Source: Ruficoccus sp. ZRK36 (GTDB lineage Bacteria; Verrucomicrobiota; Verrucomicrobiia; Opitutales; Cerasicoccaceae). Taken from it: DNA of 64,000 bases. Below, one piece after another: positions 55,935 to 64,000 of this stretch (positions are counted from its first letter, which is position 1; every line of letters starts with the position of its first letter). The notes under the pieces were generated by a model. The model made no database searches. It was not told where the DNA came from and was given only the letters and a program-made list of their open reading frames with translations. The stretch covers positions 1,565,501-1,629,500 of the forward strand of contig NZ_CP080649.1 in assembly GCF_019603315.1 (NCBI RefSeq), given 5' to 3'. Both the position numbers and the translations under genes were made by a program.

Positions 55935-56135
55935 TTCCATACATGGCTATCAATAGGGTGATTATGATTTTTTGAGCGTTTGACGGCTGTATTTTCTGTT
56001 CGGGGAGAGCTATTCAGCACCAGGCTTCCGCACCACTCGTGGTGGTAAGATACTTGGTCTTGAAGCTGCTTCTGGCAGCAAGGATTTACCTCTGGTTTTG
56101 GAGATTGATCCCATCTCTATATGAAATTCTCCACG

Positions 56136-56166
56136 AAAAAACCCGCAGTGATTGCTGCGGGTTTTT
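56136..56166. terminator. Bidirectional terminator next to the tRNA fragment
   Basis: ACCCGCAG (56141-56148) pairs with CTGCGGGT (56155-56162) around a six-base loop, flanked by six A on the left and five T on the right. It should stop transcripts in either direction. On the minus strand it lies directly downstream of the tRNA 3' end fragment, as a tRNA terminator would. Confidence 0.88.
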
Positions 56167-56172
56167 AAATAG

Positions 56173-56200
56173 TGGCGGGATGGACGGGACTCGAACCCGC
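56173..56200 (-). other. 3' end fragment of a tRNA gene (T arm, acceptor, CCA); candidate att site
   Basis: On the minus strand, 56200 to 56173 reads a 17-base T arm (GCGGGTTCGAGTCCCGT, five paired bases), seven acceptor bases (CCATCCC), discriminator G and an encoded CCA. That spacing is exactly right for a tRNA 3' end. No matching 5' acceptor strand (GGGATGG) exists within the next several hundred bases, so the tRNA is incomplete. A GGTG/CACC hairpin (56202-56214) just 5' of it could be a leftover of a variable arm. Such 3' fragments are left when elements integrate into tRNA genes. By polarity the inserted DNA would lie at higher coordinates, with the intact tRNA beyond the window. Confidence 0.7.
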
Positions 56201-56402
56201 TGGTGGACTTCACCTATTTTCACTCGGTTTCCCTTCCTGTTACTCAACAGCAACTTGAATAAGTAACCGATGGCATGCAAATGCAGGTAGATGCACCAAC
56301 ATGCTTCGTTTTTGGAAAATATGAATGCGGCTTCAATGTGCCATCAGGTAACGAATGTTTGTCCATACGCGAAGCTCATATCAAGGGGTAGGGGGGGCGG
56401 TG

Positions 56403-57827
56403 CTATAGCTTGCCTCGGCGGGTTTCCAGTCGCAGACGGATATCCGCCAACCGGTTGCGCGTTAGCGGATAATAAAGAATCAACCCGAGTGATAGCATCC
56501 AGATCGTTACTGGAATAAGCAGGAACATCCACGTCATGCGGGCAAGGACTTCTGGTGTTTGTGTTGTCTCAGATACATCGAAGCCAGATAGCTCTAACGT
56601 GAAGCCTCCAATACCCATTGCGCATGTGTTGGCTGCCTTGATGAACCAGGAATAAAATGCATTAAGTGATCCTTCCCGTCTCCTTAGGGTTCCCAATTCG
56701 TCATAGTCGGCTACGTCGGCCTTCATCGATGGAAGAAATAACCAAATGGCAGAGAAGCCTCCTGCTTGCATCGCGGCGGGAATAAGCTGGAGGTAGGGCC
56801 TACTCGGATCGAGACAGAAGTAGTAAATAAGTTGACCTGTCATGGCGACAAGTAGCATGGCTATAACAAGAGTTTTCTTGTCATATTTTTCACTGAGCCT
56901 CGTTAGTATCGGAAGTGAAGCAATGCCCACTACAACGATGACGGTGTAGCGCCAGCCATCGATGACCGAAGCGCTAGCTAAATTCCCGTTGTTGATGAGA
57001 TATATGTTAACGTATTGCCCCAGGCTGACAACGGAACTGTTGCCGAGTGAGAGGAAAAACGAGGAACCTACAAGAAACCACAAGGGTTTACAGGTAATGC
57101 TTTCCCGTAGGCTTTGCCAAAAAGGTTCTTTGGCCTGCTTGGAGGCCTCCTTTTCATAGTAGCGTTCTTTGACAAAGAGCGCTGGCATAATTCCGATGGC
57201 GACGATGAGCGCCGCGAAGTACCAACTGCAGCTCAAGACGCCATTTACGATGTCAGGATCACCCGTGACGGGGTCTGCAAACCAAGGACCTGTGACAATG
57301 GCCATGATCCAGCCTCCTCCAAGTGCGACAAGCTTGGAAAAGAATGACATCCAAGCCGTCAAGTGGGTGCGTTCGTCGTAGTTTGGCGTCAACTCCAATT
57401 GCAGGCCGAAATAGGGCATCGACCAACACGTGTACGAAGTGAAAAAGAGCCACCCAACAAACAAAAGATAGAAAAAGACACCCATTTCGCTCCAGCCCTC
57501 TGGAGGTCGCCAGAGAAACGGATAGACCATCGCAGTCGCTATTGCCCCAACGAACATGAACGGTCTTCGCCGTCCCCAGCGCGTGCGGGCATTGTCTGAG
57601 ATGTTTCCCATTACGGGATCCGAAATCGCATCCCAGCCTCTTAGGATCATCAAGCAAGTGCCCAGCAGGATCGGGCGAATTCCCAGACCAATATTGAAGT
57701 ACGGCATCCAGAGGATGTTAATCGTCACTCCTGTGGCGAAGTAATCCATCTTACCCCCCAAGGCGAAAGCGATCTTTTGTCCCAAGGGTATGCGGTCGGA
57801 CTGGGGAATCGGAGATTTCGAAGACAT
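56403..57827 (-). CDS. GPH-family (glycoside-pentoside-hexuronide:cation) symporter
   Basis: A 474-residue inner-membrane transporter with about 12 hydrophobic helices. The beginning KIAFALGGKMDYFATG, the RGWDAISDPVMGNISDNARTRWGRRRPFM loop, which is the signature of the GPH/MFS_2 family, and YDELGTLRRREGSLNAFYSWFIKAA are present. GPH transporters take up melibiose, xylosides, glucuronides and similar sugars together with H+ or Na+. It is divergent from the PEP-CTERM gene at 58029. By context it imports oligosaccharides or uronides freed by the secreted enzymes. GC content appears lower than in the first part of the window. Confidence 0.93.
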   Translation of the reverse strand: MSSKSPIPQSDRIPLGQKIAFALGGKMDYFATGVTINILWMPYFNIGLGIRPILLGTCLMILRGWDAISDPVMGNISDNARTRWGRRRPFMFVGAIATAMVYPFLWRPPEGWSEMGVFFYLLFVGWLFFTSYTCWSMPYFGLQLELTPNYDERTHLTAWMSFFSKLVALGGGWIMAIVTGPWFADPVTGDPDIVNGVLSCSWYFAALIVAIGIMPALFVKERYYEKEASKQAKEPFWQSLRESITCKPLWFLVGSSFFLSLGNSSVVSLGQYVNIYLINNGNLASASVIDGWRYTVIVVVGIASLPILTRLSEKYDKKTLVIAMLLVAMTGQLIYYFCLDPSRPYLQLIPAAMQAGGFSAIWLFLPSMKADVADYDELGTLRRREGSLNAFYSWFIKAANTCAMGIGGFTLELSGFDVSETTQTPEVLARMTWMFLLIPVTIWMLSLGLILYYPLTRNRLADIRLRLETRRGKL

Positions 57828-58028
57828 ATTAAATATAACTAAATGAATATTGCGTTGGGGGATCGGTTGTTGTGTCGCTGGCTATGTGCATTGCGCCTAC
57901 TATCTGACTGTCAGGCTTGGAGAAAATAATCTGAATCCTCGGGCGTGACTGTGCGTTGGATGCATCAAATTAGCCATGTGAAATTCATTATTGACACGCG
58001 TCAATTTTCGTCAACGATAAACTCCATT

Positions 58029-58871
58029 ATGAAAAAAACCTACCCAAACCCTGTCCGTTGTTCTTGCCTTTTGACGTTCTTATTCGCCCTGTTGATGCCC
58101 AATATCGGGATGTCTCAGCTTGTGACGAATGCGACATTTGAGTTAGATACCATTGGGGATGCGCCGCCCGCCCCTTTTACTACTGCGTCTGATACTGGTG
58201 CCAATAGCATCACCGTAGAGGATACATCTTCCATTGCTTCCAGTGCCTTGGGAACTGGGGTAAAATCCGTTTATATCGTCAATGGATCTAGCACCAGTGG
58301 CAGCCCTGCGCTGTATGCTCCGGAATCAGCTGATCTCAACCAAGCATTAATGCTATCCGCCGATTTCTACCTTCCCGCTGCGAGTTGGACGAGTAGCAAC
58401 AACATTAGCCTGGCCGTTTATGGGGTGAGCAGCTCTAGTGGCCTGGAGGTGCAGGCCTATCGTGTTACATTCAGGGGGAGTTCCGATGATATGAACCTTC
58501 AAGACAGCAACGGGACTTCCTCTCCCAGCCTTGCCATTAACAGTTGGGGTACGGGAGTTGACGAATGGTATCGAATCACTCTGTCTGTTGGGGCTCTTGA
58601 TACTAGCGAAGATACGCTCACGCTCAGCATCTATGATTCCAGTGGCACACTGATTAGCAGTGCAGCGAACCGGTCCATGGCAGACATAACGTCGATTACT
58701 CAACTTCGACTTTGGGACAACTCGGCAGGGTCTACTGTCGGTAGTTTTTACGTGGACAATGTCAGTCTCTCTACGATCCCTGAGCCGCAGGCCTCCTCCA
58801 TGTTGTTTCTTATAGGTGTAGGGCTGCTAGCTGGAGCTAGCTTCTTTAAGCTACGCGCCGCGAAGCGCTAG
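58029..58871 (+). CDS. PEP-CTERM sorting-domain protein (paralogue C)
   Basis: A 280-residue secreted protein with a signal peptide (CLLTFLFALLMPNIGMSQ), a beta-rich Ser/Thr-rich mature domain (FELDTIGDAPPAPF at the start, AALMLSADFYLPAASW-like strand, SFYVDNVSLSTIPE at the end) and the PEP-CTERM tail IPEPQASSM, hydrophobic helix and basic end (KLRAAKR). It is only distantly like paralogues A and B but has the same architecture. ATG 58029 begins the signal peptide. It is the first gene of an apparent operon with a glycosidase (gap of 16 bases), an H-X9-DG prepilin (overlap) and a LacI regulator. Confidence 0.86.
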   Translation: MKKTYPNPVRCSCLLTFLFALLMPNIGMSQLVTNATFELDTIGDAPPAPFTTASDTGANSITVEDTSSIASSALGTGVKSVYIVNGSSTSGSPALYAPESADLNQALMLSADFYLPAASWTSSNNISLAVYGVSSSSGLEVQAYRVTFRGSSDDMNLQDSNGTSSPSLAINSWGTGVDEWYRITLSVGALDTSEDTLTLSIYDSSGTLISSAANRSMADITSITQLRLWDNSAGSTVGSFYVDNVSLSTIPEPQASSMLFLIGVGLLAGASFFKLRAAKR

Positions 58872-58887
58872 AATTGTTCTCGTTAAT

Positions 58888-60684
58888 TTGCAAATCGACC
58901 CCTGCATGCACCACAGTAATTATCCTCAAAGCCCCAGTCCCATTTATTCTCGTTTGGGCAATCGTGTGTCCCTCCTGTTACTATGCCTGGCGGCTATATT
59001 TGGAAGTACACCACTCTTAGCGGCAGGTGAGGGTTTGACCCGCTTATCGTTGATTAGTCCCCATTTTCAAAGCATCTTTTTTCCGGATGAACCTCCGATC
59101 ATAGATCTGCTATTAGATAAGGGGGATAAGGATGCCACCTATTCCATCGATTATACGATTACGGATTATTTCGGTAAGTCGGTTGGCAAGGGGATGGTAG
59201 ACTATACTAATCCTAGAGGAAGAAGATGTTGGGCGAGGGTGAAACTGTCATTTGATGACGAAAATCCGATAGGATGGTTTGAGACGCTCTTTACGGTTCG
59301 AGACGCTGGTGGCAAAGTGGTCGCCACGTTAGTGAGCGATATTGCCATTGTTCCTCCCTTAAACCCAAATGCGCCCATTGATGATTCTTACTTCGGTGTG
59401 TCTGATTTTTTTGGGAGCGGTGGGTCGGCGCCGCCGTTGACGGCTGTTACTGTCTTGCCCGTGAAGCGATTGGGAGCCAAGTGGGTTCGTCTGATGGTGG
59501 GCTGGCAACAAATGCAGGACGGTCCGAACTCGCCGGTGGATTGGCGGATGATGGATCAAATTGTAAACAGTGCCGTAAATGCGCAGATACGAGTATTGCC
59601 GATGATGGGCCTTTGCCCTGAATGGGCCGTGGATTCCCCTGAGACAGTAAAAGAGATAATGCAAAATGAGAGAGGGGACAATGGAAAGGCGTTGAGGATA
59701 TGGGCGTTTCGCCCGCAAAAGGATTATTGGGAACGTTTTCTTTCTGAGGCCGTCACTCGCTACAAGGATAGAATCTCTTACTGGGAGGTTTGGAATGAAC
59801 CGAATGCCTCGAGCTACTGGCAGGATGGGGACCCCACCACCTACGGAGACTTTTTCGCTGAAAGTTATACGGTGATCAAAGAGGCAGACCCGCATGCGAT
59901 TCCAGTGATGGGGGGTATTTCTGGAGTCAAAGCGAGCTGGCTTAAGGAATTGGGAAAGACTCCGGCAGGTCCGCTTATTGATATTGTTAATGTGCATCCG
60001 TATCGGCCTCCTGCGTCGCCTCCCGAGAAGGGGAGTCCCGAGTCCTCTCCGGGATATGGGCGTAATACCCTCGTTAACGATCTGAATGCGGCAAAGAGAA
60101 TGATGGCGCATTTTCCTCCAACGCTTTCCGGTAAACCACGTGAACTGTGGGCTGGAGAAGCGGGATACAATACATTGCCAGGTTTTCCGCCTCCTCTTCA
60201 CAAGGCTGTCTCAGAAAAAGAAATGGCCAAGTTGCTTGTCAGGACAATGGTTTTGGCTCACAGCGCAGGAGCAAAGAAGTTTTTCTGGTGGCGGTTGATC
60301 GATACGTACGGAGCGGGTATGGGGCTGCTTCGTAATCCCTCGGGGCATTTCCAGCCAAAGCCCGGCTATGCTGCCTACGCTGTCTTGGAAAGGATGATTG
60401 GCCAGGCTAGTGGACCGGGAAAAAGAATGCCTGATGAGTCGGGCAATGTCTACGCCATCGTCTTCCAGCGCCCACAGGGGCCCGTATGGGTTGTTTGGGG
60501 AATCGAAGACGGGATGACGTGGAATGTAGATGCTCCACAGGGCATTCGTCTGACGAATATGATGGGCATGTCGGAATATCAATCCGCTCAGGATGGTCGT
60601 GTATCTATCGAAGTAAGCACCGACCCTGTGTATATTGAATTTCTGAATGAAAAAGATACTCCTTCCGTAGATAGGCTGCCATGA
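58888..60684 (+). CDS. Exported clan GH-A glycoside hydrolase (GH39/GH5-like)
   Basis: A 598-residue exported enzyme. A signal region (VSLLLLCLAAIFGSTPLLAAG) is followed by a beta-sandwich of about 110 residues, a TIM-barrel with acid/base E304 in YWEVWNEPNASS and nucleophile E424 in ELWAGEAGY, and a C-terminal beta part (VYAIVFQRPQGPVWVVWG). The NEP motif with a second Glu after strand seven is typical of clan GH-A. GH39 (beta-xylosidase/iduronidase) is one option; others cannot be excluded. GTTTGC-type start is unclear: TTG 58888 or ATG 58906. It is followed by a prepilin gene whose ATG overlaps its stop codon (ATGA), evidence for coupled translation. Confidence 0.82.
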   Translation: MQIDPCMHHSNYPQSPSPIYSRLGNRVSLLLLCLAAIFGSTPLLAAGEGLTRLSLISPHFQSIFFPDEPPIIDLLLDKGDKDATYSIDYTITDYFGKSVGKGMVDYTNPRGRRCWARVKLSFDDENPIGWFETLFTVRDAGGKVVATLVSDIAIVPPLNPNAPIDDSYFGVSDFFGSGGSAPPLTAVTVLPVKRLGAKWVRLMVGWQQMQDGPNSPVDWRMMDQIVNSAVNAQIRVLPMMGLCPEWAVDSPETVKEIMQNERGDNGKALRIWAFRPQKDYWERFLSEAVTRYKDRISYWEVWNEPNASSYWQDGDPTTYGDFFAESYTVIKEADPHAIPVMGGISGVKASWLKELGKTPAGPLIDIVNVHPYRPPASPPEKGSPESSPGYGRNTLVNDLNAAKRMMAHFPPTLSGKPRELWAGEAGYNTLPGFPPPLHKAVSEKEMAKLLVRTMVLAHSAGAKKFFWWRLIDTYGAGMGLLRNPSGHFQPKPGYAAYAVLERMIGQASGPGKRMPDESGNVYAIVFQRPQGPVWVVWGIEDGMTWNVDAPQGIRLTNMMGMSEYQSAQDGRVSIEVSTDPVYIEFLNEKDTPSVDRLP

Positions 60685-61322
60685 ACAGGCAAGTTGGAGT
60701 GAAGAGCAGAATGAGGCTCCAGCAGCGAGCATTTACGTTAGTAGAAATACTCGTTGCTCTGATGGTCGTTGCGGTGCTTGCAGGGATCATTTCGTTAGCC
60801 CTGCCGAGTGTGGTAAAGCAAACCAGGCAGTCCAAATGCCTGTCAAATCTCCGTCAGATAGGCATCGGTTTTAAACTCTATGCCAGCGATCATCAGCAGG
60901 ACATTGTTTCAGGAGCTGCCTCGCCTTCTTGGTATCGAGTGCTTTGCAACGAGAACTATATTTCCAAGGACGTACTCTATTGCCCTGCGCGTGACAGTAT
61001 CTCTACCACTCCCAATAATTATTCCATGAACGGGCGTATAGGTGTAGGTCAATCGGGGACGATGGGTATTGAGAAAATGCCCCAGGCAGTCAACCCTGCT
61101 CAGACCATGTGTGTGGCAGATGCCCCCATGAGGAGCAAAGGCGTATTTTACTCTCTCATGTATCCCGCTGGTGATGCGAGGGCGCAGGCAGTTCACGACG
61201 ACGGGTTGAATATCCTGTATTTAGATGGTCATGTCAGTTGGGTTCAACTTTCTGACGTTTTCACGACTGGCGAGTCTCAGAAAGCAGGAAGCCCAGGCCA
61301 CATGTTTTGGTTTGGTGATTGA
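60681..61322 (+). CDS. Prepilin-like protein with H-X9-DG motif
   Basis: A 213-residue protein beginning with a prepilin leader and helix (LQQRAFTLVEILVALMVVAVLAG, Phe then Glu at +5) and ending in the H-X9-DG motif (HDDGLNILYLDGHVSWVQ). CLSNLRQIGIGFKLYASDHQQD, the typical segment after the helix, is also present. It overlaps the glycosidase gene by four bases, so it is translationally coupled to it. This is the second such prepilin beside a LacI gene in the window. Possible function: a surface pseudopilus or fibre used while degrading the glycan. Confidence 0.9.
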   Translation: MNRQVGVKSRMRLQQRAFTLVEILVALMVVAVLAGIISLALPSVVKQTRQSKCLSNLRQIGIGFKLYASDHQQDIVSGAASPSWYRVLCNENYISKDVLYCPARDSISTTPNNYSMNGRIGVGQSGTMGIEKMPQAVNPAQTMCVADAPMRSKGVFYSLMYPAGDARAQAVHDDGLNILYLDGHVSWVQLSDVFTTGESQKAGSPGHMFWFGD

Positions 61323-61490
61323 AGCGTTTTTGATCGATCCGGCCACATTTAATCATGCTGATTCTTGCCTAATTTCTACATGCCAACCGAGTATCAGGCT
61401 ACGCCAAAGAAGGTATTGTTGTCCAGTCCGCCCCAGCAGCCGATGTTCAGTGTTGCGAAAGCCGTCGGTGGCAAGCATGCTATAAAGGCA

Positions 61491-62510
61491 ATGCGTAAGC
61501 GGATCACGTCGCAACAATTGGCTGATTATTTAGGACTGGCCCGTTCAACGGTATCCATGGCCCTCAGTGATTCACCTAAGATAAAGAAGCAAACCAAGGA
61601 ATTGGTTCAGAGGGCGGCCCGTGAGTTGGACTATATCCCAAATGTGATTGCCAGGGCTATGCCCACCGGCAAAACCCGAGTGCTTGGATTTATCACTCAA
61701 TTGACTACGCCGGAAATCAAGTTTCGCTTGTTGATGGGAGTCATGAATGCGGCCACTGAGGCTGGGTATCACATCAAACTGATCCCAACAGAGTGGAAAA
61801 TGGATTCTGCCGAGATTGCTCGTATTTGCATTGGAGAATGCCTGGGAGGGGTCCTGGTGACTCAGGTTTGGGATGAGACGATAGGTGAGTTGGTTGAAAG
61901 TCTTCACGCGCGCTCTATCCCAGTTGCTACTATGTTAAGTGGCTTTTCTCACAGAAAAGTGGCCAACGCACTCTCCGATGACAGTGTGGGCATCCATGAA
62001 GCGATCGAGCATCTGGTGGGGTTGGGCCACCGGAAAATAGCTTATTTGGGGGGCGATCCTCAGGTGGCTTCTGAAAGGGCTCGTCGCGATGCCTTCCTGC
62101 ATGCGGTTAAGATTCATAAGTTAGCGCTCCCTTCGCGATTTCTTGTGGAAAAGAGCTTTATTGCTGACGAAGCAAAGGTGGCCTTTCGGACTATGCTTGA
62201 ATCCGGCCCGCCTCCTAGCGCGGTACTGTGCGGGAATGACCAAATTGCCATGGTGGCCATACGTACGGCACGTAGCATGGGGGTTAATGTCCCCACAGAC
62301 ATTTCGGTGGTAGGCTTTTCAAACACGGAAATGGCGAAGTGGTGTGATCCGCCTTTGGCATCTATTAATCAAGGCTTCGAAGAAGTTGGCAAAATGGCGA
62401 CACAGGCGGTGCTGCGGGCATTAGCTAAAAATCGCATCAGCACATCAGTCCGAAAGAGTGTTCCCAGCCATTTTATTGCCCGTGCCTCCACGGCTCCGGC
62501 GCATAAATGA
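61491..62510 (+). CDS. LacI-family transcriptional regulator
   Basis: A LacI-type regulator with helix-turn-helix MRKRITSQQLADYLGLARSTVSMALSDS, hinge YIPNVIARAM and the periplasmic-binding-like core (RVLGFITQLTTPEIK, GGVLVTQVWDE, GHRKIAYLGGDPQ, SAVLCGNDQIAMVAIRTARSMG). From ATG 61491 it has 339 residues, the usual length; ATG 61443 or TTG 61365 would extend the N-terminus. It lies 168 bases after the prepilin gene, probably under its own or a shared promoter. It likely represses the upstream PEP-CTERM-glycosidase-prepilin operon in the absence of the sugar. Confidence 0.92.
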   Translation: MRKRITSQQLADYLGLARSTVSMALSDSPKIKKQTKELVQRAARELDYIPNVIARAMPTGKTRVLGFITQLTTPEIKFRLLMGVMNAATEAGYHIKLIPTEWKMDSAEIARICIGECLGGVLVTQVWDETIGELVESLHARSIPVATMLSGFSHRKVANALSDDSVGIHEAIEHLVGLGHRKIAYLGGDPQVASERARRDAFLHAVKIHKLALPSRFLVEKSFIADEAKVAFRTMLESGPPPSAVLCGNDQIAMVAIRTARSMGVNVPTDISVVGFSNTEMAKWCDPPLASINQGFEEVGKMATQAVLRALAKNRISTSVRKSVPSHFIARASTAPAHK

Positions 62511-63089
62511 GCGTTTTATGTTGTGAGTCGATATGACTTTTCGTGGGTATCTGAGCCCTCTGCTGCGACCCCATTGCTAGTGATATGGTTTTTCTGTATA
62601 GGACAGATAATCTATATGAAGCGAGGTACGACGCCGATCACCGAGTTCCTTCAAGGAATTATCCACTCTAACTCCATACGAGTATATGGCCTGACTAAAC
62701 ACTCTATAAACATACGGAATTTAGAGAAACAAGTAACTACACAGGGCCCTATGTCTGGCTCCAAATGATCATAAAAACCCCTCTCTTGTTCCTGTTTTAT
62801 CCGCTCCTGACACTGAATCACTCTACCTGAACTGGCCCCGCTGGCTCACGCTGCTGGTGCTGTGCATGAGCTCGATCGTGAGTGGTGTGCTCATCCCCAA
62901 GGCGGCCCTTACTCGTCTGGATCCGGGATAAAAGACATATGCCAGTCGAGGTATAGACACGAGCGTTCGTCCCCAAACAGGGGCTCCGGTAGCAGCTTCG
63001 AAACCCAGCCAGCATTCGGGCTCAAGTTACCGGGTAGGTCGGCAGTGAGCAGGGCCCAGGTGTTGTCAGGATCGTTCAGCCACCTACGT
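62511..63089. pseudogene. Gap with decayed coding fragments
   Basis: This 579-base stretch has no intact gene, but two fragments have protein-like character. On the plus strand, about 62750-62930 reads an open frame without a start codon ending in a membrane-type segment (LYLNWPRWLTLLVLCMSSIVSGVL) before a stop at 62930. On the minus strand, 63089 to 62909 reads WLNDPDNTWALLTADLPG and later LFGDERSCLYLDWHMSF, again without a usable start. Their openness and composition suggest remnants of genes broken by rearrangement. The identities are unknown and this may be coincidence. No terminator or repeat was recognised. Confidence 0.35.
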
Positions 63090-64000
63090 TCATGGAGCTT
63101 CGTAGCTTTTCGTGCCTCCGAGTTGAATAAAACGCTTCAGCACGTAAGCACTGCAGATCAGGGCAGCGATGGTTAAAAGGGCAGCGCATAGAAACGCATA
63201 GCGATAAGCGTTTCCAGAAAGGTCGATGACGAAACCGAGCATTGGCCCGATCAGAATATTCGCTGGTGAGTTAAGCGTACTTTGAGCGGATGAAAACTGT
63301 GCATATTTATCATGCGGGTAGAGGCGTTGCCCCAGTGAGGCCGCGGAAGTATAAAAGCATCCGGATAAGACCCCGTGAAGCACCCAGGCGATCAGGAAAC
63401 TTTTTTGGTCATTCGCAAAGATGAATCCCCAGCCGGTAACGAGCATATAGCCTGTTAGCGAGATGATCACCATGCGTAAGGGGTGAAACAAGTCGACAAG
63501 CCACCCAAGGAAAAAAGAAAGGCAAAGTGAGATAAGGAAGGCGAGCGAGAGATAGTCCCCGTAAGTGTCCATGTCGATGTCGAGACTTTTGGCGTAGGGA
63601 AGCGCGAAGATGTTTACCGAACTGATGGCAACCAGGGAGAACATGATCATTGCGAAGATCGCAAGATAGTAGGGGTTGGTATAGCAGTCTCGGACATATT
63701 CTTTCACTCCGGCCCAAAACCTGCCGCAAATGCCCGGTTGGTTAGATGTGACAGGGGACGGTGGCGGATAGTCCCCCTCCTTAACTTTTAGGCAGACCCA
63801 CAGGAATGAGGTCCCATAAAAGACTGCGATAATCAGCATTATCAAAGTAAAGTGCGATGGGACCTCTCCCATGATCCAGTAGTTGAAAAACATGCCGTCG
63901 ATGAGGCTGATGGCTCTGAAGAAACCATAAAATCGACCAAGCAGTTCTTTCGGAACCACATCATTAATGAGTCCGCCGAAGACGGACTGGCCTATAATCG
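63090..64000 (-). CDS. MFS transporter (partial, cut by the window end)
   Basis: The frame is open to the last base of the window, so the N-terminus is missing. The visible 303 or so residues hold about eight hydrophobic helices, including FTLIMLIIAVFYGTSFLWVC, YLAIFAMIMFSLVAISSVNIFA, LSFFLGWLVDLF and AFLCAALLTIAALICSAYVL. The central loop RFYGFFRAISLIDGMFF and the LGWLVDLFHPLRMVIIS segment match the MFS fold. Substrate is not clear; the setting suggests a sugar or oligosaccharide. It reads convergently to the LacI gene at 61491 across a gap with decayed sequence. Confidence 0.85.
   Translation of the reverse strand, partial: IIGQSVFGGLINDVVPKELLGRFYGFFRAISLIDGMFFNYWIMGEVPSHFTLIMLIIAVFYGTSFLWVCLKVKEGDYPPPSPVTSNQPGICGRFWAGVKEYVRDCYTNPYYLAIFAMIMFSLVAISSVNIFALPYAKSLDIDMDTYGDYLSLAFLISLCLSFFLGWLVDLFHPLRMVIISLTGYMLVTGWGFIFANDQKSFLIAWVLHGVLSGCFYTSAASLGQRLYPHDKYAQFSSAQSTLNSPANILIGPMLGFVIDLSGNAYRYAFLCAALLTIAALICSAYVLKRFIQLGGTKSYEAP

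Follow-up and report, generated by a model that had tools for sequence, protein, structure and literature searches.

A CIME, as the excerpt of PMC5704250 words it, is a decayed element which keeps both att sites and has lost its integrase. The ssrA islands of Dehalococcoides, as far as the excerpt of PMC3146451 describes them, are catabolic islands arrayed in tandem behind a single RNA gene whose 3' end is repeated at their borders, a layout shared by the locus reported here, and in some of them the integration module lies beside attL. The tandem accretion of decayed islands at a tRNA is already known and its mechanism is established. The locus compared here with these systems lies in Ruficoccus sp. 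ZRK36 (genome G000, 3.76 Mb); the window, that is, the whole stretch of DNA analyzed, has 64,000 nucleotides and corresponds to C1:1565501-1629500 of this genome. It contains a 3' fragment of tRNA-Asp(GTC) which, judging from sequence comparisons, very probably marks, as its attR, the outer end of island C, which of three integrated elements in tandem at tRNA-Asp(GTC) is the outermost with clear limits. The initial annotation had taken the fragment for the scar of one integrated island; it is an island end, but three islands are involved instead of one. The features of the window are listed below (window coordinates, strand, description).

56136-56166, minus strand: hairpin with U-tract, 3' of the tRNA fragment (folding, z -5.2)
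56173-56200, minus strand: tRNA-Asp(GTC) 3' fragment, putative attR of island C (28-nt exact match)
56201-56321, minus strand: outer arm of island C (DNA alignment)
56173-64000, no strand: in-window part of island C, which runs on to C1:1650751 for a total length of 29.05 kb, with the next tRNA-Asp fragment there and a truncated integrase before it
56403-57827, minus strand: sugar transporter of the MFS_2 / GPH type (PF13347, 1.1e-65)
57945-58871, plus strand: protein whose tail resembles PEP-CTERM (recognized by eye, without a Pfam family)
58888-60684, plus strand: glycoside-hydrolase-like protein (weak match to PF00150 (GH5), 2.2e-4, 21.2 bits against a cut-off of 23.5)
60681-61322, plus strand: prepilin-type N-methylation protein (PF07963, 1.2e-6)
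61365-62510, plus strand: LacI-family regulator (PF00356, PF13377)
63090-63998, minus strand: MFS transporter, which runs beyond the window (Pfam)

The minus strand of window positions 56173-56200 reads GCGGGTTCGAGTCCCGTCCATCCCGCCA, which comprises the T arm, the 3' acceptor strand, the discriminator G and CCA. All 28 bases are identical to positions 50-77 of tRNA-Asp(GTC) (E value 7.4e-8 in a search of G000), which bears out the earlier description of a tRNA 3' piece with correct T arm, acceptor and CCA. ARAGORN found no tRNA in the whole window and Rfam showed nothing at gathering score for the fragment; therefore the 5' half is absent, as had been proposed. An intron-containing or split tRNA at this position was rejected, since the window contains none according to ARAGORN and the complete gene for tRNA-Asp lies elsewhere. 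The tmRNA, considered as another source of the fragment, was also rejected, since the G000 tmRNA sits at C1:2687700-2688051. The hairpin begins six bases past CCA (56166) and ends near 56136, U-tract included, with a 12-bp stem whose 3' side is the U run. The 70-nt stretch that contains it shows an MFE of -28.2 kcal/mol and was equaled by none of 200 shuffles, in agreement with the terminator described behind the fragment, although a simple consensus terminator scan does not list the hairpin at 56136-56166, possibly since the U tract is taken up into the stem. The hairpin is nearly symmetric and intrinsic-terminator-like, and possibly bidirectional.

The intact tRNA-Asp is located at C1:1709347-1709423, on the same strand as the fragment and 88 kb to its right, the side on which a search for a tRNA ending in these 28 bases had been suggested as a check. 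The 28-base core is identical at four sites, all on the minus strand and within 88 kb: the intact tRNA-Asp, C1:1666985, C1:1650752 and C1:1621673 (window position 56173). A whole-tRNA search shows one full-length tRNA-Asp copy in G000 among the matches listed. Since the intact gene lies rightward and two exact copies lie between, the window fragment is the outer end of a tandem array, in which three islands follow one another outward from tRNA-Asp, each bounded on its outer side by a fragment: A (42.3 kb) by fragment 3, B (16.2 kb) by fragment 2 and C (about 29.1 kb) by fragment 1. The polarity claim, which put the inserted DNA toward higher coordinates, was right. As a control, 32 distinct tRNA sequences of G000 (rather than all its 45 tRNA matches) were compared with the contiguous 149.5 kb, and 31 of them had no 28-base 3'-end match with up to four mismatches, tRNA-Asp being the sole exception. 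The right-hand context of the intact gene is conserved: a homologue of the adjacent gene, C1:1709599, adjoins tRNA-Asp in G001, G002, G004-G009 and G039.

A different origin, in which fragment and hairpin are a dispersed repeat (terminator or REP-like, with a bit of tRNA) spread by duplication with no integrase role, would fit the observation that the three copies have the hairpin as well as the tRNA end in common, a similar hairpin following the fragments at C1:1650752 and C1:1666985, and also the similar hairpin behind a tRNA-Leu elsewhere in G000. However, the four exact cores within 88 kb share one orientation and lie on one side of the intact tRNA-Asp, the remaining genome-wide matches of the fragment search are 79-86% identical and are found at tRNA-Leu genes, and integrase genes or remnants adjoin two of the fragments. 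Furthermore, at C124:72547 of the congener G001, a sequence 72% identical to fragment 2 and the far arm of island B joins a tRNA-Leu(CAA) 3' fragment, not tRNA-Asp, and another contig of G001 shows an integrase of the same family behind an intact tRNA-Leu(CAA). The dispersed repeat is already largely refuted by these data and we consider it extremely improbable.

Integration at the tRNA, the reading that we prefer, is also reflected in the island ends. The tRNA-side ends of islands B and C are 85.5% identical over 380 bp and their far ends 88.5% over 192 bp (window 56130-56321, with arm, core and hairpin, against C1:1650710-1650900), core and hairpin included in both cases. Without core and hairpin, the tRNA-side arms have an alignment score of 200.5, against a maximum of 28.5 in 300 shuffles. 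Both borders of B and of C carry core and arm sequence, the putative attL and attR being kept. That B and C are duplicates of each other was ruled out, because their cargo shows no DNA match. In the arm alignment, of four rows, the outer arm of island C can also be aligned to the G001 tRNA-Leu fragment and to a tRNA-Asp fragment in G004, which belongs to another genus; fragment 2 with the far arm of B is 71% identical to this G004 sequence over about 160 bp. The ends of island A share a 21-bp direct repeat (C1:1667117-1667137 and 1709264-1709284).

The block from 1621673 to 1709347 might have arrived as one large composite element and not by successive insertions, as the excerpt of PMC5704250 mentions conjugative transfer of CIME-ICE tandems, and internal fragments would ride along. 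We regard this as unlikely: the arms and the integrase of A are different from those of B and C, and the direct repeat at its two ends is expected if A entered alone. By successive insertion, a lambda-type tyrosine recombinase would have joined each circular element to the tRNA 3' end through a site-specific crossover in that half of the tRNA which bears the T arm. A copy of the tRNA 3' end, together with the hairpin, would have come with each element, and every insertion would have rebuilt tRNA-Asp and shifted the old 3' end outward. The simplest order would be C, then B, then A, since the arm of A now abuts the intact tRNA-Asp. Islands B and C would have lost the catalytic part of the integrase and would remain, presumably immobile at present, as CIME-like islands with their cargo.

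The initial annotation proposed to look for an integrase gene to the right, and both an intact and a broken one are present there. The intact gene, in island A, encodes a tyrosine integrase of 417 aa (C1:1667130-1668383) and lies beside fragment 3. It belongs to a different family from that of B and C and occupies the tRNA-distal end; hence island A does not represent merely a more recent copy of either of them. The remnants of B and C belong to one divergent integrase family and are located between tRNA fragment and cargo, just behind fragments 3 and 2, respectively. The remnant of B has about 40 codons in one frame. The remnant of C (frame C1:1649645-1650463, with matching codons up to 1650529) has about 220 codons, stops just before the 'FAGIRP' Arg of its full-length relatives and matches the phrog_1 integrase of PHROGs (7.6e-10); no PF00589 match was found between fragments 1 and 3. 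In G002, of the same genus, a homologue is 85% identical over the C remnant and its frame continues to its own C terminus; the aligned N terminus lies 61 bp behind an intact tRNA-Asp, and a weakly excisionase-like gene (8.2e-4) is found further on.

Other places of G000 also show integrases beside tRNA sequences. A tRNA-Gly(TCC) 3' fragment (C1:1477891-1477953, locus L194) is accompanied by a near-full-length integrase of the B/C family on the opposite strand (about 1476650-1477803; HMM 3.5e-54, 391-aa open frame), and this locus is another island border in G000. Three more tyrosine integrase matches, at C1:702862 (tRNA 702585-702659), C1:2603017 (tRNA at 2603230) and C1:3029804 (tRNA 3029523-3029594), lie within about 220 bp of tRNA genes, which makes additional tRNA islands in G000 likely. 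The second contig of the assembly (G000:C2:1-6050, L178) matches vector-type plasmids (lacI, aph(3')-Ia, Rop) from unrelated hosts, the best four with 86-88% coverage and 99.7-100% identity, and is probably an assembly contaminant.

The cargo was studied by Pfam in 27 proteins of B and C, a set which excluded two ORFs crossing locus borders and some smaller ORFs. Among the genes named in the initial annotation to the right of the fragment, the GPH transporter, the prepilin and LacI were recovered by Pfam; the glycosidase remained below the cut-off and the PEP-CTERM protein is recognized by eye. Island C (19 proteins) shows MFS_2 and MFS_1 sugar transporters, LacI regulators, GH130, a GDSL esterase, a heparinase II/III-like C-terminal domain, 2-hydroxyacid dehydrogenases and Gfo/Idh/MocA proteins. 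Island B (eight proteins) shows an oligogalacturonate lyase, a melibiase (just over the cut-off), LacI regulators, a GDSL protein and a prepilin motif. Several of the scanned proteins have no Pfam family. The cargo of B and C includes many carbohydrate-catabolism genes, and no conjugation genes were recognized by Pfam among the 27 proteins, a subset of the ORFs. The cargo of island A differs from that of B and C in the few genes looked at, which include a TIR-kinase protein (C1:1679760-1681616), a patatin-like protein (C1:1682346-1683437) and an IetA/IetS-like pair formed by an AAA ATPase and a subtilase (C1:1700252-1703791, L059:5253-8792), a candidate anti-phage system. A relaxase suspected by eye in island A (ORF C1:1705236-1706627) is not claimed here, as this ORF has no match in Pfam, PHROGs or PADLOC.

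The GC content had been described as appearing to fall where the inserted DNA begins. A local drop is present, from 0.546 at 52-56 kb to 0.497 at 56-60 kb of the window, but an earlier drop, from 0.614 to 0.543, precedes it at 24 kb; therefore 56.1 kb is a second GC step. Values are about 0.59-0.62 up to 24 kb and 0.54-0.59 between 24 and 56 kb, and islands A, B and C show 0.529, 0.524 and 0.545, respectively, and the outer flanks have 0.605 and 0.598. The region of lower GC, where carbohydrate-type genes abound, starts some 32-35 kb left of the fragment, so the fragment bounds island C and perhaps not all of the accessory DNA, which may begin near 20.8-24 kb of the window.

An older decayed island, D, might be located left of fragment 1 (about 20.8-56.1 kb), and the entire 123 kb between the housekeeping block and tRNA-Asp would then be accreted. 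We consider this possible, but less likely than not. It is favored by the first fall of GC at about 24 kb and not at 56 kb, by the average GC of 20.8-56.1 kb (0.56 against 0.605 further left) and by the lack of a counterpart of this region at the G001 site, although parts of it match other places in G001-G003. Furthermore, when the 429 bp on the left side of the fragment are aligned to the integrase-side arm of G002, the score is 34.0, the maximum of 300 control windows being 28.5. Nevertheless, this place is not among the best 40 hits listed for an HMM of the integrase N-terminus, the arms of B and C give unremarkable alignments (equaled by 10 and 5 of 300 controls) and the window shows no further core copy with up to eight mismatches. 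An initial left-side alignment had 67% identity over 251 bp with tRNA end and hairpin included; without them, the alignments to the B and C arms give z values of 2.9 and 3.5 with single shuffles scoring higher, and are unconvincing because their scores are near shuffle and control-window level. Sulfatase-, LacI- and glycosidase-like genes were seen by eye in window 20800-56100 (C1:1586300-1621600).

A comparison with genomes lacking the block had also been proposed. In G001, a block matching window 14.0-20.7 kb is found at C92:13851-20723 and the intact tRNA-Asp at C92:45716-45792, followed by the homologue of C1:1709599, so that the flanks are about 25 kb apart against 123 kb in G000. Between these flanks, a core search found no tRNA-Asp 3' fragment and none of the island proteins (ORFs of at least 90 aa) matched at 1e-8; the one G000 protein (ORFs of at least 90 aa) represented in this interval is a LacI-like one of the left part of the window, with 28% identity. 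The absence of the island proteins supports the proposal, but the G001 site is not empty, since the flanks there enclose 25 kb of other genes. The interval is itself variable, as 15.2 kb of it is found next to a tRNA-Leu in G002. None of G001, G002 and G003 offers a clean empty site: the G002 site consists of an element end and a contig end, and the G003 assembly has no full-length tRNA-Asp match among the matches listed. G001 also shows a second, 88% tRNA-Asp-like match on contig C46.

Copies of the tRNA-Asp 3' end alone are present in at least six of 54 genomes: three in G000, two in G005 and one in each of G004, G022, G026 and G046. The tRNA-Asp island of G004 has 31.6 kb, keeps about 43 integrase codons at the tRNA and carries, by eye, heparinase-like, enolase-like and Gfo/Idh-like genes. 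In G005, from another genus, the two fragments (C12:30598 and 83683, L118 and L119) are 53 kb apart, both with integrase pieces in changing frames behind them, and the intact tRNA-Asp is on contig C37; they probably represent a second array in another genus. A sequence of G039 (C31:35603-35640), which matches the tRNA-Asp 3' end and flank with 89% identity 3.4 kb from the intact tRNA-Asp, is a possible further fragment.

A search with the C remnant gave matches in 16 of the 54 genomes, G000 included, the closest other one being G002. A scan of public genomes with the family alignment retrieved 17 loci, three of which appear to repeat the relatives G001, G041 and G039, with titles naming Opitutia, Opitutales, Opitutaceae, Puniceicoccaceae, Coraliomargarita, Pelagicoccus or Verrucomicrobia. 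Sixteen of them have a tRNA or tmRNA upstream, on the strand of the integrase: six tmRNA, three tRNA-Leu, three tRNA-Ser, two tRNA-Pro and two tRNA-Asp; the other locus, L166, has merely 127 bp of upstream sequence. Between the RNA gene and the start of the integrase match there are 63-114 bp in 15 loci (15 of the 16 with such a gene); in L173 the distance is 916 bp, the match begins only with query residue 60 and the frame is open from that residue. An unbroken near-full integrase frame is present in 10 of the 17 loci and five are cut by a contig end. In Puniceicoccaceae bacterium M30B33 (L175, JAGYJE010000015.1, 3856-4639), the family integrase behind tRNA-Asp has 59 codons before an in-frame stop and matches the family no further than residue 216, though the contig continues, and is another decayed copy at tRNA-Asp.

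Residues R270, R353 and Y385, which we take to be the catalytic Arg, Arg and Tyr of tyrosine recombinases, are invariant in the 11 aligned family members. All 11 also show a His before the conserved Arg with H-x-x-x-R spacing and a G-N-S-E motif shortly before R-x-H-Y. PF00589 matches seven of the 11 at E values up to 1 (best 9e-4), and the first member, with 18.7 bits, is below the Pfam Phage_integrase cut-off of 27.1. One full-length member was modeled structurally (mean pLDDT 82.6, pTM 0.54); the best fold match of this model in Foldseek is lambda Int (1z1b, E 2.9e-7), and the sequence of the member matches phrog_1 at 5.7e-18. The family is thus predicted to have the tyrosine recombinase fold with the conserved Arg, Arg and Tyr, an end which the broken C remnant does not have. 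It resembles the lambda-type tyrosine integrases in fold and phrog_1 assignment, and differs from them in being below the Pfam cut-off and in its H-x-x-x-R spacing, the usual one in tyrosine recombinases being H-x-x-R; its active site may be unusual.

In marine Verrucomicrobiota, the repertoires of sulfatases and glycoside hydrolases are large and variable. Stacked islands at a defined integration site would offer one route for the arrival and fixation of such loci, and the tRNA-linked integrase family is a handle for locating islands of this type in other genomes. A more general reading, which we regard as rather doubtful, is that this tRNA/tmRNA-targeting element family is a vehicle for polysaccharide-degradation loci across Opitutia, whose cargo at tRNA-Asp has repeatedly been locked by integrase truncation; if so, catabolic loci would pile up at tRNA-Asp because a truncated integrase locks them in the chromosome. 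Truncation at tRNA-Asp was observed in G004 (about 43 codons), island B (about 40), island C (before the Arg) and L175 (broken frame). Against this reading, the frame is open to the C-terminal region in 11 of the 12 public loci uncut by a contig end, in a scan which is blind to strongly truncated copies.

Among the literature titles and abstract openings searched, none describes this tRNA-Asp array or the B/C-type integrase family, which does not prove that they are absent from the literature. The Dehalococcoides ssrA islands, according to the excerpt of PMC3146451, involve a serine recombinase and tmRNA, whereas tyrosine recombinases and tRNA-Asp are found here. The array resembles CIME accretion as outlined in the excerpt of PMC5704250: elements stand in tandem, parted by copies of the 3' end of the target, one element of the array has an intact integrase, and B and C keep putative att sites without a functional integrase of their own. 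It differs from what that excerpt describes in its carbohydrate-catabolism cargo, its Verrucomicrobiota host and the lack of conjugation genes among the B and C proteins scanned. Islands B and C fit the CIME definition as it is worded there.
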